Of a stretch of 55,846 bases of DNA, positions 1 to 55,846 are shown piece by piece. Location: positions 1 to 55,846 of the forward strand of contig JAKLDH010000005.1 of NCBI GenBank assembly GCA_022703625.1. The letters are read 5' to 3'. A program made the position numbers and the translations under genes. The notes below the pieces were generated by a model. The model saw nothing but the letters and a program-made list of their open reading frames with translations. It did no database searches and was not told where the DNA came from. The DNA is from Cyanobacteriota bacterium. GTDB lineage: Bacteria; Cyanobacteriota; Vampirovibrionia; Gastranaerophilales; UBA9971. Numbering within the stretch: position 1 is the first letter of the stretch; every line of letters begins with the position of its first letter.

Positions 1-85
1 AGCCGCATGTCCTTAAGAAGGCGTAGCGGCTGGCGAAGCCAGCCGCTACGCCAAATATAAAATTATTTATTTAGCAATTCAGGTT
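1..85. repeat. MITE family R1, right half of the copy that spans the window ends
   Basis: This is the right part of a non-autonomous inverted-repeat element. It ends in TTAGCAATTCAGGTT at 71-85, the inverted partner (one or two mismatches) of AACTCGAATTGCTAA at 55719. It contains half of a GC-rich hairpin (GCTGGC-gaa-GCCAGC). Bases 1-43 match 55804-55846 except the loop (gaa against ttc). The base after the element is the start of GATT, the same 4 bases that precede 55719, so the element carries a target duplication when the ends are joined. No transposase is encoded. Confidence 0.8.
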
Positions 86-255
86 GATTAAAATATCCGC
101 ATAAAAATATAATAAAAAATCCTGTTCCAACAAGAATAAGAATAATTTTATAAAAATTTAAAAGTTCCGCTAAGAGAAACTATAATAGCTGTCCAGCAAT
201 TATTCTTTATATCTTTATGGTGATTAATTTTTTCTTTTATATAATCTTGTTTCAT
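86..255 (-). pseudogene. Two-helix small membrane protein, N-terminal part (interrupted by MITE R1)
   Basis: Read leftward from ATG 255, the product starts MKQDYIKEKINHHKD and resembles the intact 79-aa protein at 50356-50595 (MEKDVIKEKIDMLRD). A one-base slip after about residue 33 puts the second hydrophobic stretch (LILVGTGFFIIFLCGYF) in another frame. The element at 1-85 then cuts the gene. Its C-terminus lies at 55665-55718 on the same strand. Removing the element plus one GATT gives CGYFNHYSIIEGLLKK, in frame and co-linear with the intact paralogue. The frameshift could be real decay or a sequence error. Confidence 0.65.
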
Positions 256-262
256 TTCTATT

Positions 263-364
263 CTATATATTTTCTTCAGTTTTGTTTAAACGTATTGCTA
301 TATATAACATAAGCCCGCAAATATAAAGAGAGCCAATCAATAATATAATTTCTTCAATACTCAT
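263..364 (-). CDS. Single-helix membrane microprotein, 33 aa
   Basis: ATG 364 to TAG 263 encodes MSIEEIILLIGSLYICGLML followed by a short charged tail. One hydrophobic segment (about residues 5-22) predicts a one-pass inner-membrane protein. It follows the 17-aa relic at 368-421 with a 3-base gap, the same order and spacing seen in the other two-gene cassettes of this window. The ribosome site is weak (AAGAG), which suggests coupling to the upstream stop. Function unknown. Confidence 0.5.
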   Translation of the reverse strand: MSIEEIILLIGSLYICGLMLYIAIRLNKTEENI

Positions 365-367
365 CTC

Positions 368-421
368 TTATTCTTCATTTTTTAATTTGCTTATAAGCGA
401 TTTTATTGCATCTTGTTTCAT
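368..421 (-). pseudogene. Relic of the two-helix cassette protein, 17 aa
   Basis: The frame MKQDAIKSLISKLKNEE joins the typical N-terminus of the two-helix family (MKQDxIK) directly to its typical C-terminus (LIxKL). Both membrane helices are missing, so this looks like an internal deletion. It is immediately followed by the 33-aa microprotein gene. It may survive only as a short leader that couples translation of its neighbour. Confidence 0.4.
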
Positions 422-2108: not shown

Positions 2109-2228
2109 TTATTTTAATTCATTTAACATAATAATAATTTTTTTATTAATTATATTAATATTAATAATTCAATCTTTTAATAAAAAAATTCCGCTGATAA
2201 GAAAAATTTTTTCAATAATATATGAATT
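2109..2228 (-). pseudogene. Degraded two-helix cassette protein, C-terminal remnant
   Basis: Reading leftward, the last codons give INKKIIIMLNELK then TAA at 2109-2111, similar in shape to the LIxKL ends of the intact two-helix proteins. Earlier codons are broken by in-frame stops, and element R2a begins at 2229, where the N-terminal part should be. This matches a cassette whose first gene was destroyed by an insertion. The similarity is short, so confidence is low. Confidence 0.3.
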
Positions 2229-2413
2229 ATACCAATCAAAATAAGTTTTCGTTAATTTGTTAAAAAGCTGATATCTACAGCCCGCGACGCCCTGCGGGCG
2301 TCGCGGGCTGAGTAAGGGTAGGGCAGGTGTTTTGCCGAAGGCAAAACACCTGCTAATTAAGGATTTACAAAAACCATCTTTTTTATTTAACGGTTTTTTA
2401 AATTGATTGGCAT
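2229..2413. repeat. Double-hairpin inverted-repeat element R2a
   Basis: The ends are ATACCAATCAA (2229-2239) and TTGATTGGCAT (2403-2413). Inside are a 15-bp perfect stem with loop tgc (2278-2310) and a 14-bp perfect stem with loop gaa (2323-2353). A second, inverted copy lies at 21690-21852. Between the copies the GC-rich stem differs by paired changes (C-G to T-A and A-T to C-G), so the fold is conserved while the sequence is not. No open frame inside. Confidence 0.6.
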
Positions 2414-4129: not shown

Positions 4130-4231
4130 TTATTTTTTAGATGGGTGGAGATCCCGGGCTTTATAAATCGCATAAATGAAAATCGATAAAAACAAAAGCA
4201 CCATTATTGTAAGCATAATTTCGTCCAGCAT
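4130..4231 (-). CDS. Single-helix membrane microprotein, 33 aa
   Basis: ATG 4231 to TAA 4130 encodes MLDEIMLTIMVLLFLSIFIY plus the basic tail AIYKARDLHPSKK. One membrane helix spans residues 5-22. A GGAG site lies 8 bases before the ATG, overlapping the stop region of the upstream two-helix gene. Antisense to, and convergent with, the tape measure gene, which ends 3 bases away. It belongs to the recurrent two-gene cassette family of this window. Function unknown. Confidence 0.55.
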   Translation of the reverse strand: MLDEIMLTIMVLLFLSIFIYAIYKARDLHPSKK

Positions 4232-4237
4232 TTTTTC

Positions 4238-4456
4238 TTACTCCTTTAATTCTCTTAAAAAGGCGCTAATTGCCTTTATTAAAATAAACGCCATAAACGT
4301 TAAAGTAATTATGGCTAAATATGATAAATTTTTTTGAAATATTGAAACATTTTTAAAATTTTGAAATAACCATGCGGTACAACCTGCATCAAGTGTTACT
4401 AAAAATGTTAATAACAATTTAAAAAAAGAAATTGCTTCTTTAATTTTATCATTCAT
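4238..4456 (-). CDS. Two-helix small membrane protein, 72 aa (cassette family)
   Basis: MNDKIKEAISFFKLLLTFLV begins the protein. Hydrophobic segments at about 11-29 and 44-63 predict two membrane helices joined by a short polar loop, with a charged C-terminus (LRELKE). A GGGAGCAG-like site precedes ATG 4456. It heads a two-gene unit with the 33-aa microprotein at 4130-4231. Paralogous units lie at 46196/46081 and 50356/50202. It sits antisense between the tape measure and minor tail genes, as expected for an inserted moron. Confidence 0.6.
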   Translation of the reverse strand: MNDKIKEAISFFKLLLTFLVTLDAGCTAWLFQNFKNVSIFQKNLSYLAIITLTFMAFILIKAISAFLRELKE

Positions 4457-4519
4457 TTTAATCTGCTCCCTTATATTATTTTATACTTTGAGCTTAGATT
4501 GTCAACAGGAGCCTTTTTT

Positions 4520-4894
4520 ATGACAGAAACGTTTAATTATCAATATAAAACAGCTTATCAAACAAGCTCTCAATGGAATACCATTATCGATGAGGTATAT
4601 TCAGGCGGTGAACAACGCCGGAATTTATGGACAAATTCCCGCAAAAAATGGGTTCTGGAGTTTTCTAAAAATGACGCTGACGCAAACGCAATAATGGCTT
4701 TTTTTAACGCAAGAAAAGGGCGTTATGAGGCGTTCTACTGGACATGGCAAGCTACACATCCTGTAACAGGGAAATCTATGGGCGGGGACGGAACGCAATA
4801 TACCGTCAGGTTTGACCAGGACGAACTTAACCTGGAGCATCTGGCTTTAGGGTATAAAACTTTTCAGATTACGCTTGTTGAAACTGTTATTTAA
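4520..4894 (+). CDS. Minor tail protein, lambda M-like / DUF2460-related
   Basis: 124 aa from ATG 4520, preceded by CAGGAG. The motif GGEQRRNLWTNSRKKWVLEF and the FFNARKGRYEAFYW segment (about residues 63-77) are characteristic of M-type tail tip proteins that join tube and tip. The product is about the size of lambda M and only half the length of the gene-transfer-agent DUF2460 proteins. It follows the tape measure, as expected, and its 3' end overlaps the antisense RelE-like toxin gene by 8 bases. Confidence 0.7.
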   Translation: MTETFNYQYKTAYQTSSQWNTIIDEVYSGGEQRRNLWTNSRKKWVLEFSKNDADANAIMAFFNARKGRYEAFYWTWQATHPVTGKSMGGDGTQYTVRFDQDELNLEHLALGYKTFQITLVETVI

Positions 4895-5138
4895 CTTTAT
4901 AGCTGTCTTTTCTATGCAAAATTCTTGCAATATAAATAATGTCCTCTACTACATCAAATAAAATCCGGTAATCTCCTGACCTCATTATATATGCTGGATC
5001 AAAATTTACTAATTTCTTACAGTTTGAAACATTTGGGAAATTTTCCAGTGTCTTTAATGTTTCAAGAAGCTGTTTTGTTACAGATTTATCCAGTTTGTTT
5101 AAATCTTTTTGAGCGGATTTTCTAAGTTGCGCTTTCAT
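4887..5138 (-). CDS. RelE/ParE-family toxin
   Basis: 83 aa with the family pattern LRKSAQKDLNKL near the N-terminus and RSGDYRILFDV followed by IARILHRKDSYK at the C-terminus, the core of RelE/ParE toxins (ribosome-dependent mRNA cleavage or gyrase poisoning). The start overlaps the antitoxin stop by 17 bases, so both come from one message running antisense to the tail operon. It likely acts as an addiction or anti-phage module carried by the element. Confidence 0.8.
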   Translation of the reverse strand: MKAQLRKSAQKDLNKLDKSVTKQLLETLKTLENFPNVSNCKKLVNFDPAYIMRSGDYRILFDVVEDIIYIARILHRKDSYKVK

Positions 5139-5358
5139 TTTTTACATATTCTTCCAATGAAATGCTTTCTTCGCCTCTTGTTTGTTTAATCAACTCATAA
5201 TCAATCAAATCCTGGATTTTTTCCCATTCCTTCATGTTAATGATAACAAAACCTTCATTATCTTCATCTGTAACAGAAACAATCTCATCGAATTTTTCAA
5301 TTTCTGAAATTATATTTTTGATTTTTTTTAGAAAAATTTTTTTAGAAAAATTAATCAT
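5122..5358 (-). CDS. Phd/YefM-type antitoxin
   Basis: 78 aa, first gene of the pair with the RelE-like toxin. The N-terminal region (residues 1-45) fits the DNA-binding, dimerising part of Phd/YefM antitoxins, with FVIINMKEWEKIQDLIDYEL matching the usual VVIxxxEYExL helix. The C-terminus is acidic and polar (GEESISLEEYVKNESAT), as expected for the toxin-neutralising tail. An AAGG site lies upstream of ATG 5358. Such antitoxins usually repress their own promoter. The AT-rich 50 bp upstream would hold it. Confidence 0.7.
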   Translation of the reverse strand: MINFSKKIFLKKIKNIISEIEKFDEIVSVTDEDNEGFVIINMKEWEKIQDLIDYELIKQTRGEESISLEEYVKNESAT

Positions 5359-6121: not shown

Positions 6122-6445
6122 TTAAACTTTAATAATTTTGCCTTTTTTGATTATTTCCTGGTATAAAAAATCGCCTTCTTTGACATTTTGATATTCTTCA
6201 AGTGAATATGCCCGTGGCGAAATGTCAAAATCAAATTTTTCGCTAATTTCTTTTAATTTTACGCATTCATCAAAGAAATCTTTTCCAAAATCTGGAGAAA
6301 CAACGGCAACATCAATATCGCTGTCTTCTCCTGCTCTGTTTTCAGCATAAGAACCAAATAAAAAAGCAACTTCAACCTTTATATTACTATTTTTAATTGC
6401 TTTTATATAATCTTTAAGTTTTTTCATAATTGGTTTTTTAGCCAT
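6122..6445 (-). CDS. MNT-type nucleotidyltransferase antitoxin
   Basis: 107 aa minimal nucleotidyltransferase. FLFGSYAENRAGEDSDIDVAV (about residues 29-49) holds the GS and DxD residues that bind nucleotide and metal. It pairs with the HEPN protein encoded upstream. In known pairs the MNT protein neutralises the HEPN RNase by adding AMP to it. The ATG at 6445 has a GAGAGG site. An alternative ATG at 6427 would overlap the HEPN stop as ATGA. Antisense to the tail operon. Confidence 0.85.
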   Translation of the reverse strand: MAKKPIMKKLKDYIKAIKNSNIKVEVAFLFGSYAENRAGEDSDIDVAVVSPDFGKDFFDECVKLKEISEKFDFDISPRAYSLEEYQNVKEGDFLYQEIIKKGKIIKV

Positions 6446-6807
6446 TTAAAAACCTCTCTTGTTTGGTTGATAATTTTTAAAGTATTTTCCTTTGTACATT
6501 TTACTTTTAATTCATTTCTTTTTTCCGCATATCTGGTTTCAATATAATAAACATTTAAATATCTAAATAGAATTTTTGTTTCTTCTGAAAGTTTTTCAGT
6601 CAACTTTGTAATTTCTGAAAGATATATTAAATCGTGCTTTTTAGGCGCATCTTTTTCATTTTTATAAATATATATAGCCTTTATGGCTTTTTCAACGCAC
6701 TGTTGACACATAAAAACAGACCACAAAAACTGATTGCCCTTAAAACTCCACTCGGCAGCCTGTAAATCTTCTTCTGCAATATTAAACCAAATTTCATATC
6801 TTTCCAT
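6424..6807 (-). CDS. HEPN-domain toxin
   Basis: 127 aa, all-helical. The sequence WFNIAEEDLQAAEWSFKGN and CQQCVEKAIKAIY are hallmarks of HEPN proteins paired with MNT enzymes. KKHDLIYL follows in the middle, and YIETRYAEKRN near residue 95-105 supplies the arginine-containing motif. HEPN toxins of this type are RNases. Here the RX4-6H motif is not clearly complete, so activity needs testing. It is the first gene of the pair, 22 bases overlapping the MNT gene. Confidence 0.8.
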   Translation of the reverse strand: MERYEIWFNIAEEDLQAAEWSFKGNQFLWSVFMCQQCVEKAIKAIYIYKNEKDAPKKHDLIYLSEITKLTEKLSEETKILFRYLNVYYIETRYAEKRNELKVKCTKENTLKIINQTREVFKWLKNQL

Positions 6808-43604: not shown

Positions 43605-43706
43605 TTATTTATGGACAGGGTTCTTTGTCATTTTTATAGCGGCAATCACTATAAGAATAAAAAATCCGGCGGCAACTCCAAATTGCAAAATTTCAATTCC
43701 TGTCAT
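43605..43706 (-). CDS. Single-helix membrane microprotein, 33 aa
   Basis: ATG 43706 after TTGGAGAAATAAA encodes MTGIEILQFGVAAGFFILIV and then AAIKMTKNPVHK. One helix (residues 6-23) with a basic tail, like the 4130 and 46081 microproteins. No two-helix partner next to it. The opposite-strand frame is a shadow. Confidence 0.5.
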   Translation of the reverse strand: MTGIEILQFGVAAGFFILIVIAAIKMTKNPVHK

Positions 43707-43867: not shown

Positions 43868-44198
43868 TAATTAAATAAACCGAGAAGGGAGCGGCTACTC
43901 CCCCTCAGTTCAACAGATTACAGGAATCTATCGAATAGTTTAACAAGTGGCGCTGCTAGGCTTTTAGCAGCGTTTTTGTCTATCAGAAAAATACCAATAA
44001 ACATAACGGCTAATATAGCAGTAATTGCCACCTGTGTAGATATTGTTATATCCACTTGTGTTAATCTCCTTTCAAGGCATTGCTAACATAAATCAAGACT
44101 TGCCTAAGGTCTTAACTAAATCTAAATTTCATAGTTTTCCTTTTTGAAACAAAAATGTTAGTATGCTGAAAGACTGAGGTTCTCGGCTTATTTAATTA
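43868..44198. repeat. Inverted repeats flanking a microprotein gene
   Basis: TAATTAAATAAACCGAGAA at 43868-43886 and TTCTCGGCTTATTTAATTA at 44180-44198 are inverted copies with one mismatch in 19. Further in, CCTCAG (43903) mirrors CTGAGG (44174). They enclose the 45-aa microprotein gene and look like the ends of a small cassette, or paired terminators. Confidence 0.45.
43918..44055 (-). CDS. Single-helix membrane microprotein, 45 aa
   Basis: GTG 44055 with AAAGGAG 10 bases upstream encodes a protein starting MDITISTQVAITAILAVMFI. One helix (about 8-25), then DKNAAKSLAAPLVKLFDRFL, an amphipathic tail. It lies between the early region and terminase genes, antisense. Similar in size to the cassette microproteins but with a longer tail. 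A toxin-like or holin-like role is possible but unproven. Confidence 0.5.
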   Translation of the reverse strand: MDITISTQVAITAILAVMFIGIFLIDKNAAKSLAAPLVKLFDRFL

Positions 44199-46080: not shown

Positions 46081-46194
46081 TTAAGAATTTTTGTGGGAAT
46101 CATCCCATCTTTTATCTGACCTATGCATCCACCAAAGGAATTGACCTGCTATAATTAAAACGCCTACAAATCCTATAATTTCCCAAGTCGTCAT
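46081..46194 (-). CDS. Single-helix membrane microprotein, 37 aa
   Basis: ATG 46194 to TAA 46081, with AAAGGAG inside the end of the upstream gene. Sequence begins MTTWEIIGFVGVLIIAGQFL, one helix, then a polar tail (WWMHRSDKRWDDSHKNS). It starts one base after the stop of the two-helix gene 46196-46438, so translation is coupled. Cassette inserted between terminase and the tagged-protein genes. Confidence 0.6.
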   Translation of the reverse strand: MTTWEIIGFVGVLIIAGQFLWWMHRSDKRWDDSHKNS

Positions 46195-46438: not shown

Positions 46439-46510
46439 AAGATTTATTATACTTTTTTAAACAGAAAAAAGCTATAAGCTTTATCTTTGAACTATATTAC
46501 TTATCAAGCG
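46439..46510. other. Short gap, nothing recognised
   Basis: AT-rich stretch upstream of the two-helix cassette. It should hold that cassette's promoter on the minus strand, but no clear boxes are seen. Followed by repeats R3 and R2c, which fill the rest of the 323-bp gap. Confidence 0.3.
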
Positions 46511-48540: not shown

Positions 48541-48654
48541 TTATTTGCAATTGTCGTTTTTACATGGGTCGATTTTTGTAAAGTTAATCGCCCAATATAA
48601 TGTTACTATCGCTATAAATGCAACCCCAAAATAAGTTATTATATCGTATATCAT
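48541..48654 (-). CDS. Single-helix membrane microprotein, 37 aa
   Basis: ATG 48654 encodes MIYDIITYFGVAFIAIVTLY then WAINFTKIDPCKNDNCK. One helix (7-24), and two cysteines in the tail. The ribosome site is weak (AGAG). It is divergent from the portal gene 76 bases away. Same size class as the other cassette microproteins, without a two-helix partner. Confidence 0.45.
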   Translation of the reverse strand: MIYDIITYFGVAFIAIVTLYWAINFTKIDPCKNDNCK

Positions 48655-49945: not shown

Positions 49946-50034
49946 GGGATTATAAAACAAATTAAGCGGGGGTTTTGTCGTCTGCTGTTGCTATAATAAC
50001 ACTTGCAATCATACCTCCTGTAAAAATTATAAAT
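49946..50034. other. Gap between portal gene and MITE R1, remnant frame
   Basis: About 90 bp. On the minus strand ACAGGAGGT directly precedes a 16-codon frame (MIASVIIATADDKTPA). The ribosome site is too close to its ATG and the frame is cut off by the MITE, so it is probably a remnant. Confidence 0.25.
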
Positions 50035-50164
50035 AACTCGAATTGCTAATTAGTCGAAACGCTGAAATAGATTGAAATTTTATTTTAATTTTTTATGCGG
50101 CTCGCAGGCTTTGCCTGCGAGCCGCTACGCCAAATATAAAATTATTTATTTAGCAATTCAAGTT
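50035..50164. repeat. MITE family R1, complete copy (130 bp)
   Basis: Ends AACTCGAATTGCTAA and TTAGCAATTCAAGTT (15 bp, one mismatch), flanked on both sides by AAAT (target duplication). The centre is a 13-bp perfect stem GCGGCTCGCAGGC with loop ttt, the inverse of the loop aaa in the other copy. The copy at the window ends is 40 bp longer because it has a second hairpin. No reading frame. Confidence 0.8.
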
Positions 50165-50201
50165 AAATAAAAGAATTAGTAAAAGATTATTTGTATTCAT
50201 T

Positions 50202-50354
50202 TTATTTCGCTTCTTTTTTAAGTTTTTCTAAAAAAGGATCGGGACGGTTTATTTTATAATTAAAATATAAGCCTAAGCCAAGAAGATATATACAAAATAG
50301 TATCTGAACAATTTCTGTGATGCCAATTGGTATTCCATTTACGTTAAAAATCAT
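50202..50354 (-). CDS. Single-helix membrane microprotein, 50 aa
   Basis: ATG 50354, with GGAGAGG upstream, starts MIFNVNGIPIGITEIVQILF, helix GITEIVQILFCIYLLGLGLYF, then NYKINRPDPFLEKLKKEAK. It begins one base after the stop of the two-helix gene 50356-50595, exactly as at 46194/46196. Convergent with the portal gene. Unknown function. Confidence 0.6.
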   Translation of the reverse strand: MIFNVNGIPIGITEIVQILFCIYLLGLGLYFNYKINRPDPFLEKLKKEAK

Positions 50355-50355
50355 T

Positions 50356-50595
50356 TTAATTCACCTCTCCTAGTTTTGTTATTAAATTATCAATTTCAAT
50401 TTCTTTTTTAAAATACGCTTGAAAAAATATTATTGAGAAAAGAAAACCTATCGGGAACAAAAACCAGGAAATAATATATCCCATATTAAACGCAACCGCA
50501 ATTGTACCGCCAATAGTTACTACGGTTGCATTCCAGAGATGGTTGCGAGTATCTCTTAACATATCTATTTTTTCTTTAATAACATCTTTTTCCAT
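50356..50595 (-). CDS. Two-helix small membrane protein, 79 aa (cassette family)
   Basis: MEKDVIKEKIDMLRDTRNHLWN, helix 1 ATVVTIGGTIAVAFNMGY, helix 2 SWFLFPIGFLFSIIFFQAYF, tail KKEIEIDNLITKLGEVN. This is the best preserved family member and the reference for the broken gene at 86-255 plus 55665-55718 (MKQDYIKEKI...FLCGYF...IEGLLKKL). No database family recognised. Confidence 0.65.
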   Translation of the reverse strand: MEKDVIKEKIDMLRDTRNHLWNATVVTIGGTIAVAFNMGYIISWFLFPIGFLFSIIFFQAYFKKEIEIDNLITKLGEVN

Positions 50596-50646
50596 ATTTA
50601 TATATTTTAGCTTTTAATTTTAAACAAGTCTATAAAACTGACAAAT

Positions 50647-50718
50647 AAAGGGGAGAATATGTGTATTTGCAAAAATACAGCGGTTGTTAACCTACTTTTG
50701 CGTAAGCAGACTGGGTAA
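50647..50718 (+). pseudogene. Truncated 5' copy of the 49-aa gene
   Basis: The ribosome site and first 11 codons (MCICKNTAVVNL) nearly equal 51160-51206, then the frame runs off into the hicB end and stops at 50718. It is the upstream member of a head / full / tail set of direct repeats around two hicAB modules. Confidence 0.55.
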
Positions 50719-50899
50719 CAGCTTCCGGAACTGGTAAGCCGTCTTTTATCAAGCTTTGTATATGAAATTCCAAGGCTTCCTGCATATTTTTCATTGTTTC
50801 TTCAACGGTTTTCCCTACAGCCACGCATCCTTCAACATCAGGAGCATAAGCTCCAAAGCCGTTTTTACTTTTTTCTATAATAATAAGATAATTTTGCAT
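50687..50899 (-). CDS. HicB-type antitoxin
   Basis: 70 aa. YLIIIEKSKNGFGAYAPDVEGCVAVGKTVEETMKNMQEAL is the HicB partial RNase-H-like fold. No C-terminal DNA-binding domain, so a minimal form. It follows hicA in the same direction with a 24-base gap and AAAGGAT upstream. Neutralises HicA. Confidence 0.85.
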   Translation of the reverse strand: MQNYLIIIEKSKNGFGAYAPDVEGCVAVGKTVEETMKNMQEALEFHIQSLIKDGLPVPEAVTQSAYAKVG

Positions 50900-50923
50900 A
50901 AATTTTATCCTTTCTTCGGGTTT

Positions 50924-51109
50924 TTATTTTAAGCCTGCCTGCTTTAATACGCTGTTTAATGTTCCTTTGGGCATATCTATTCCTGCATTTCCTGCAATTG
51001 TTACCTTGCCGGGCTTAGTTGGATGTCCATATTGTCTATGGCTGCCAACCTGATTAACTAAATGCCAACCATCTTTTTCTATTAATTGAATAAGTTTTCT
51101 TACTTTCAT
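50924..51109 (-). CDS. hicA: HicA-type mRNA interferase toxin
   Basis: 61 aa. MKVRKLIQLIEKDGWHLVNQVGSHRQYGHPTKPGKVTIAG has the dsRNA-binding-like fold, with the catalytic His in GSHRQYGHP (H24). MPKGTLNSVLKQAGLK is the typical end. It cleaves mRNA when HicB is lost. Typical length. Antisense to the head operon. Confidence 0.9.
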   Translation of the reverse strand: MKVRKLIQLIEKDGWHLVNQVGSHRQYGHPTKPGKVTIAGNAGIDMPKGTLNSVLKQAGLK

Positions 51110-51322: not shown

Positions 51323-51655
51323 TTAAGCAATATATTTTTCCAAAGCTTCATATATTATTGAATTTATTGATTTTCTCTGGCTTTGCGCCTTTAATGCGGC
51401 TTTTTTATGCAATTCAGGACTTATCCTTACATTTAACGTCCCCTTGAATTTTTTAAAAGGTTCTTTTCCGCTTTCTTTACAATCTTCTATATATTCTTCC
51501 ACAGATTCCTGAAAATTGCTTATCAGTTCTTCAACGTTCTTTCCTTCATACAAAATTAAATCTTCAACAAATAAAATTTTACCGAACAAGCAGTTGTCTT
51601 CCTGGCTAAATTCAACAGAACCGCAAAAATTTTTGTATTCAAGTATATTTTTCAT
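51323..51655 (-). CDS. HicB-type antitoxin with ribbon-helix-helix tail
   Basis: 110 aa. LEYKNFCGSVEFSQEDNCLFGKILFVEDLILYEGKNVEELISNFQESVEEYI is the HicB fold. GTLNVRISPELHKKAALKAQSQRKSINSIIYEALEKYI is a C-terminal RHH DNA-binding domain that represses its own promoter. Spaced 3 bases after its hicA. Distinct in type from the 70-aa HicB nearby. Confidence 0.9.
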   Translation of the reverse strand: MKNILEYKNFCGSVEFSQEDNCLFGKILFVEDLILYEGKNVEELISNFQESVEEYIEDCKESGKEPFKKFKGTLNVRISPELHKKAALKAQSQRKSINSIIYEALEKYIA

Positions 51656-51658
51656 TTT

Positions 51659-51907
51659 TTATTCCTCCAGGTTTAATTTTTCTTTTATTTCATTAATTAC
51701 ATAAGTTTTAACAATGTTTTGCGGGTGGGGTTTATGTGTTTTAATTATATTTCCGACTGAATTTATAAATTTAACCCTTGAACCGCTTGTTTTTCCAGTT
51801 TTTATTTCATTATAGCCTAATATTTCAAGCAGTTTAACCAGTTCTTCCCATGTAAAATCCTTTGGGTTATTTAAAAATCTCTTTATTAATTTATTATTTT
51901 TACTCAT
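51659..51907 (-). CDS. HicA-type toxin
   Basis: 82 aa. FTWEELVKLLEILGYNEIKTGKTSGSRVKFIN followed by THKPHPQNIVKTYVINEIKEKL is the GSRxxF...HKPHP form of HicA found with RHH-type HicB. The His in HKPHP is conserved. Upstream of its hicB, same strand. Second, unrelated HicAB module in 1.2 kb. Confidence 0.85.
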   Translation of the reverse strand: MSKNNKLIKRFLNNPKDFTWEELVKLLEILGYNEIKTGKTSGSRVKFINSVGNIIKTHKPHPQNIVKTYVINEIKEKLNLEE

Positions 51908-55541: not shown

Positions 55542-55661
55542 TTATAAATTTTCTATATCTTTATTGATTTTATGGTACTGCAAAAGACCATAGATAGTTC
55601 CTCCAATTAAAACAACTGTCACAAAAGCTTGAACTATATATGTTAATGTCGTATTATCCAT
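55542..55661 (-). CDS. Single-helix membrane microprotein, 39 aa
   Basis: ATG 55661 (GAAAAGGGGGAATAAAAA upstream) starts MDNTTLTYIVQAFVTVVLIG, one helix, then a polar tail ending DIENL. It begins 3 bases after the stop of the interrupted two-helix gene, repeating the cassette layout. Convergent with the capsid gene terminator. Confidence 0.55.
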   Translation of the reverse strand: MDNTTLTYIVQAFVTVVLIGGTIYGLLQYHKINKDIENL

Positions 55662-55664
55662 TTT

Positions 55665-55718
55665 TTATTCCCCCTTTTCCAATTTTTTAAGCAATCCTTC
55701 TATAATACTATAATGATT
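55665..55718 (-). pseudogene. Two-helix small membrane protein, C-terminal part (cut by MITE R1)
   Basis: Reading left from 55718: HYSIIEGLLKKLEKGE then TAA at 55665. It aligns with EIEIDNLITKLGEVN, the end of the intact 79-aa family protein. The N-terminal part is at 86-255, across the window junction. The element 55719-55846 plus 1-85 with GATT on both sides separates the two. Confidence 0.7.
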
Positions 55719-55846
55719 AACTCGAATTGCTAATTACCCGAAACGCTGAAATAGTTTGAAACTTTATTTTAATTTTTTATGCGGCTCGCAGGCAAAGCCT
55801 GCGAGCCGCATGTCCTTAAGAAGGCGTAGCGGCTGGCTTCGCCAGC
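55719..55846. repeat. MITE family R1, left half of the copy that spans the window ends
   Basis: Starts AACTCGAATTGCTAATTA, preceded by GATT. It contains the 13-bp stem GCGGCTCGCAGGC with loop aaa, then GCGTAGCGGCTGGC and half of a second hairpin at the very end. Bases 55804-55846 equal 1-43 except loop ttc for gaa. Joined to 1-85 it makes a 170-bp element. Confidence 0.8.

Follow-up and report, generated by a model that had tools for sequence, protein, structure and literature searches.

A recurrent pair of small membrane protein genes in Gastranaerophilales and their phages, possibly a mobile toxin-antidote-like module

Background

The membrane toxins of type I toxin-antitoxin (TA) systems, such as Hok, Ldr, TisB and Fst, are small hydrophobic proteins that occur in many divergent copies. 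The leaderless TA operons of Mycobacterium tuberculosis encode soluble proteins, mostly of the VapBC type, usually with the antitoxin as the first gene. In this organism, leaderless starts are seen in 32 of the 37 TA pairs for which a start has been mapped (PMC3898074), and TA modules with a toxin-first gene order exist as well (PMC7167474). Among phage-related membrane proteins, P22 SieA and HK97 gp15 are inner-membrane superinfection exclusion proteins (PMC10883804). The subject here is a two-gene unit, coding for a two-helix membrane protein followed by a one-helix membrane microprotein, that recurs in a phage contig of 55,846 nucleotides (JAKLDH010000005.1, assembly GCA_022703625.1; this whole stretch is called the window below) from a Cyanobacteriota bacterium of the order Gastranaerophilales, where it was pointed out by a first-pass annotation made from the DNA letters only.

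The unit resembles the toxin-first type II modules (hicAB, higBA, mqsRA) in having two small coupled genes with the candidate effector first, and in its transposase-less mobility, with gain and loss on phages, plasmids and chromosomes. It differs from them in that both products are membrane proteins, with no DNA-binding partner and no sequence match to a toxin or antitoxin family among the known type II families, and in that its start signals are split between a leaderless and a Shine-Dalgarno (SD) start. Its products are small, hydrophobic and present in many divergent copies, as are the type I toxins, but the partner is a protein-coding gene, and a scan with Rfam matched no RNA family, antisense or other. 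With the M. tuberculosis operons it has in common that TA-type genes are preferentially leaderless (PMC3898074), although here only the first (two-helix) gene is. Like P22 SieA, HK97 gp15 and T4 Imm, its products are small membrane proteins carried by phages; unlike them, the pair is a two-gene unit that is mostly chromosomal and located in core operons, and no sequence match to the known superinfection exclusion families was found.

Results

The pairing of the two genes is beyond chance. A one-helix open reading frame (ORF) of 25-50 aa directly follows 104 of the 110 distinct two-helix ORFs having room downstream, compared with 28 of 331 other genes, and the spacing is mostly -4 to +4 nt (88 of the 110 within -8 to +10 nt, versus 5 of the 331). 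The two partner proteins are also co-inherited (Mantel r 0.39 overall and 0.22 when restricted to divergent pairs, with p<0.0005 in either case). From the charge pattern, the prediction is an N-in/C-in hairpin for the two-helix protein and an N-out/C-in orientation for the one-helix protein, while single-sequence AlphaFold gave one continuous helix and was uninformative.

The profile search for co-occurring genes that the first-pass annotation had proposed recovers the pair throughout the Gastranaerophilales, with 72 of 286 genomes (mostly metagenome-assembled) matched by an alignment-based profile and at least 19 matches listed for the fullest genome. Homologues of the two-helix protein at 50356 are present in the host chromosome and in all 10 genomes of the host's family, and 3 of the 7 matches in the host genome fall on the single 56-kb phage contig. 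In a phylum-wide search matches were confined to the order. Outside it, the same bicistron is found in another phylum, on the Aquifex aeolicus plasmid ece1, where the two-helix gene AQ_RS08815 (WP_164930901.1, annotated as hypothetical only; profile score 50 bits) overlaps by 4 nt with an unannotated ORF for a 34-aa membrane microprotein that has a strong SD (L188, 2252-2356). This pair adjoins TA genes, lying after PIN/AbrB and AbiEii toxin genes, and differs in having an SD for its two-helix gene. No credible match came from profile searches of Pfam, PHROGs, NCBIfam, PADLOC and PDB; BA5345_fam of NCBIfam, with an E of 1e-3, fell short of its cut-off. No pair was found in viral contigs scanned with single proteins or close alignments, the full alignment being devoid of any conserved peptide, and a consensus tblastn against plasmids and phages returned nothing, possibly because matches were lost to low-complexity filtering. 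Literature searches yielded no description of a two-helix/one-helix pair family.

Both genes are under purifying selection. For the orthologues between fabH and fabD, the ratio of nonsynonymous to synonymous substitution rates (dN/dS) is 0.07-0.14 for the two-helix and 0.09-0.24 for the one-helix gene, while in 14 further pairs the corresponding ratio pN/pS is 0.29 for either gene when pooled. Orthologues mostly range from 0.05 to 0.28, and an outlier of 0.66 concerns two copies within one genome. With values of about 0.1-0.3, far below the value near 1 at which the first-pass annotation proposed to abandon its idea, and with a pairing that is conserved elsewhere, its view of a selected, recurrent two-gene membrane system holds.

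The start signals of the two genes differ strongly. A ribosome site shared by both, as assumed earlier, proved wrong, since the two-helix gene is predicted to be usually leaderless and lacks an SD, whereas the microprotein gene has a very strong one. The mean SD duplex energy is -2.1 kcal/mol for two-helix genes, -3.4 for other genes and -8.1 for microproteins (two-helix versus microprotein, paired p 6e-17), i.e. weaker than in ordinary genes for the former and much stronger for the latter. Among the 98 non-redundant units, 55 have a -10 hexamer at the leaderless position, ending exactly 6 nt before the ATG in 41 of them and 7 nt before it in 11; shuffled controls give a mean of 9.8 (maximum 16), and other genes 14 of 233. 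Matches to the -35 box at a distance of 16-19 nt are likewise more frequent (55% versus 21%). Start codons were set by the protein profile rather than by the promoter, and the transcription starts are consensus predictions. This placement of the -10 and -35 boxes ahead of the ATG indicates that many units have their own promoter and a leaderless first gene, while units embedded in operons often have no leaderless-type promoter of their own.

Most of the approximately 100 copies are located in chromosomal operons, where they occupy gaps between core genes, with neighbours that were confirmed by NCBIfam (atpD/atpC, argJ/argB, adk/map, fabH/fabD and leuC/leuD-type) or identified by reading the sequence (accB/accC, scpA/scpB and trpB). 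These copies are co-oriented with their housekeeping operons. The earlier suggestion of a moron family does not hold in the main. What stands of that suggestion is the accessory position in phages, where most copies are oriented against the late genes (the window, L139 and L088) and lie beside TA modules. In phage L139, with a portal 77% identical to that of the window, a different pair occupies the same post-portal gap, while most related phages have no pair and fill those gaps with other cargo. In the scpA-scpB gap (L029, L013), a small helix-turn-helix gene lies immediately 5' of the pair, with which it could form a three-gene unit.

Several sites document gain and loss. In three relatives, accB and accC are 10-13 bp apart, and in a further one 64 bp, while a different genus has the unit between them. 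Between fabH and fabD, among 22 genomes of one genus, the unit is present in four and relics in three (one of which is a precise deletion between short repeats), with neither in most others. Two cassettes at this site (L172 and L176) are 98-100% identical, with dS values of 0.06 and 0 compared to 0.81 for fabH; the identical block stops at the flanking genes, and the site is empty in a close relative (L177). The same cassette also occurs at unrelated sites (L158/L161, 93% identical; L087/L088, 94%), and even within one genome (L081/L121, 83%). The block shared by L158 and L161 begins with the -35 box and stops about 12 nt beyond the second stop codon. A cassette of approximately 350-400 bp, complete in itself, thus moves among phages, a plasmid and gaps within essential operons. 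Inverted repeats and target-site duplications were looked for at the cassette edges and none were seen, by which insertion in the manner of a miniature inverted-repeat transposable element (MITE) or insertion sequence was rejected.

In the window itself, three intact pairs are encoded on the minus strand, each in a gap that separates late genes of the plus strand (Table 1), in agreement with the first-pass annotation on both their existence and their antisense placement; their intergenic gaps are 6, 1 and 1 nt in the order of the table. The two-helix protein at 4238 belongs to a second subfamily that is related to the main one (hhalign 96%). Of the additional units proposed, the one broken across the contig junction is real, with a frameshifted N-terminal part, a MITE, the C-terminus and an intact microprotein. 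The proposed relic at 368/263 is indeed the remnant of a unit, although only its two-helix gene has been reduced and the microprotein gene is still intact. The ORF at 1995 represents what is left of a decayed unit, namely its microprotein, since the 81%-identical microprotein of a related phage (L210, from genome G001) follows a two-helix gene that is intact. As to the solo microproteins, those at 43605 and 48541 look like family members, while the one at 43918, with a GTG start and a different sequence, is a doubtful member; this one-helix ORF (43918-44055, 45 aa) has a good SD and a terminator-like end, and possibly encodes an unrelated small membrane toxin.

Table 1. Units, remnants, start signals and TA modules in the window
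Feature	Positions	Strand	Remark
Two-helix protein, 72 aa, second subfamily	4238..4456	-	intact pair
One-helix microprotein, 33 aa, strong SD AAAGGAG	4130..4231	-	intact pair
Promoter TTGACA-16-TAAAAT and short SD-bearing leader	4478..4505	-	4238 subfamily not leaderless
Two-helix protein, 80 aa, main family, 93 bits	46196..46438	-	intact pair
One-helix microprotein, 37 aa, ATG at 46194, SD AAAGGAG	46081..46194	-	intact pair
-10 box TATAAT, end 7 nt 5' of ATG, leaderless start	46446..46451	-	
Two-helix protein, 79 aa, main family, profile seed	50356..50595	-	intact pair
One-helix microprotein, 50 aa, SD AGGAGAGG	50202..50354	-	intact pair
-10 box TAAAAT, end 8 nt 5' of ATG	50604..50609	-	
Two-helix remnant, 17 codons (MKQDAIKSLISKLKNEE), transmembrane part deleted, TATAAT 6 nt before ATG	368..421	-	
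Intact one-helix microprotein of the 368 remnant unit	263..364	-	
Broken two-helix gene, N-terminal part, stops/frameshift, then MITE	67..255	-	
C-terminal remnant ...SIIEGLLKKLEKGE* of the same two-helix gene, far side of MITE/contig junction	~55665..55718	-	
Intact microprotein of the MITE-interrupted unit	55542..55661	-	
Microprotein, 81% identical to one of an intact pair in related phage L210	1995..2093	-	
Probable decayed two-helix gene upstream of 1995	2109..2244	-	inferred from sequence
Solo microprotein, close to the L003 and L035 microproteins	43605..43706	-	
Solo microprotein, true ATG near 48654	48541..48654	-	
TA module, ParE type	4887-5358	antisense	
TA module, MNT-HEPN	6122-6807	antisense	
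TA module, HicAB	50687-51109	antisense	
TA module, HicAB	51323-51907	antisense	

The four TA modules share the late-gene gaps with the pairs. That the contig belongs to a phage follows from its large terminase, which is related to 1,673 phage records; the match of its capsid protein to a phage-capsid family of Pfam is weak, slightly below the cut-off. The contig ends are two halves of one two-helix gene with a hairpin MITE between them, which shows that the contig closes into a circular map. Copies of this MITE-like repeat, which has terminal inverted repeats AACTCGAATTGCTAA...TTAGCAATTC, are found at 50032-50172 and at 55710-55846 plus 1-93, the copy that interrupts the two-helix gene being accompanied by a short probable target duplication. 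The circular map also holds a glycan-biosynthesis cluster of approximately 24 kb (14800-39200), with two flippases, a DegT-type aminotransferase, a methyltransferase, an FAD oxidase and a PMT-type glycosyltransferase, which is unusual cargo for a phage of such size. A second phage lineage in the same host genomes (G000:C150, G000:C123 and relatives L212-L216) has a portal that is approximately 50% identical and carries adenine-methyltransferase-like genes; no pair was detected in it.

Discussion

Two coupled membrane genes with their own sigma-70-type promoter are gained and lost in a lineage-specific manner, both in operons and in phage gaps. As in TA modules, two small coupled genes are kept together, with horizontal mobility, patchy presence and an association with mobile elements. 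Because the pair is mobile, patchy and selected, has a weakly started first and a strongly started second product, and keeps the company of TA modules, it can be read as toxin-antidote-like, and a mobile, transposase-less two-gene membrane module working like a TA (i.e. addiction) module is tentatively preferred as its explanation. The two-helix protein would be the growth-affecting partner, sparingly made from a leaderless message, while the one-helix protein, made in excess from its strong SD, would keep it inactive in a membrane complex; toxicity, neutralisation and complex formation are all inferred, and the excess of antidote over toxin is predicted from the start signals only. The two-helix protein would then be released either by loss of the cassette or by a stress that shifts initiation from SD-led to leaderless messages. 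Where units lie antisense in phages, their own promoters might allow expression independent of the late operon.

Several observations weigh against this explanation. Neither protein has homology to any known toxin. A leaderless-type box is missing from approximately 45% of the units, of which some have leaders and others lie within operons; the 4238 subfamily carries an SD, and the positions of the transcription start sites are themselves placed by consensus. The preferential loss of the two-helix gene, which was tested as a signature of a toxin, amounts to a weak trend, since the ratio of approximately 13-15 units with broken two-helix genes to 2-4 with an intact two-helix gene and no microprotein is near that of the gene lengths and not significant once length is considered.

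The main rival, a superinfection-exclusion or anti-phage module in which an inner-membrane pair would block the entry of competitor phage DNA and which would be carried as a moron by phages and kept as copies in host operons, is rather unlikely. Such a role would suit membrane proteins that are phage-borne and antisense with their own promoter, that are accessory and variable per slot (as in the post-portal gap) and that account, on the phage contig, for 3 of the 7 host-genome matches, and it has precedent in inner-membrane proteins like P22 SieA and HK97 gp15 (PMC10883804). However, exclusion proteins would be expected to be mainly prophage-encoded, and most copies of this pair are found in housekeeping operons instead of prophages or defence islands; PADLOC and PHROG matches are absent, and the asymmetry between leaderless and strong-SD starts is left unexplained. 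The toxin-antidote-like explanation seems to fit better.

It is likewise unlikely that the pair is a beneficial, non-toxic membrane complex acquired horizontally, e.g. one that regulates a membrane enzyme or the proton-motive force, in which the excess of one-helix subunits would merely reflect stoichiometry. Purifying selection, strict pairing and the location within core operons (including atpD-atpC and accB-accC) would all be expected of such a complex, but its presence is patchy, genomes carry several divergent copies, the neighbouring pathways are unrelated and losses by deletion are frequent. A holin/antiholin-like or release function of the phage, which might come to mind for phage-encoded hydrophobic proteins of small size with one or two helices, is very improbable for genes that are antisense to the late genes, present in several copies, absent from most related phages and mostly chromosomal. 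Chance hydrophobic ORFs can be dismissed: short transmembrane ORFs do arise in such AT-rich gaps (the 28 of 331 baseline), but the conserved profile, the pairing, the selection and the promoter and SD signals already refute them.

A more far-reaching form of the toxin-antidote-like explanation is doubtful: an all-membrane mobile addiction or defence module with a leaderless effector and a strong-SD antidote, in which these two modes of translation would set the balance, stress that favours leaderless initiation would shift the ratio and so arm the module, and spread would occur without a transposase in essential operons and phage gaps.

Conclusions

The pair constitutes an abundant unannotated family, without a match in Pfam, NCBIfam, PHROG, PADLOC or PDB and with microproteins smaller than the usual limits of gene calling, that has inserted time and again into the best-conserved operons of one bacterial order, and into the phages of that order. 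At minimum, it provides a defined profile, an inventory of sites that are filled, empty or decaying, and a clear prediction for expression. Should it prove to be a toxin-antidote module, both partners would act in the membrane and the contrast between leaderless and SD initiation would encode their dosage; in that case it would also account for the spread of very small selfish cassettes without a transposase.
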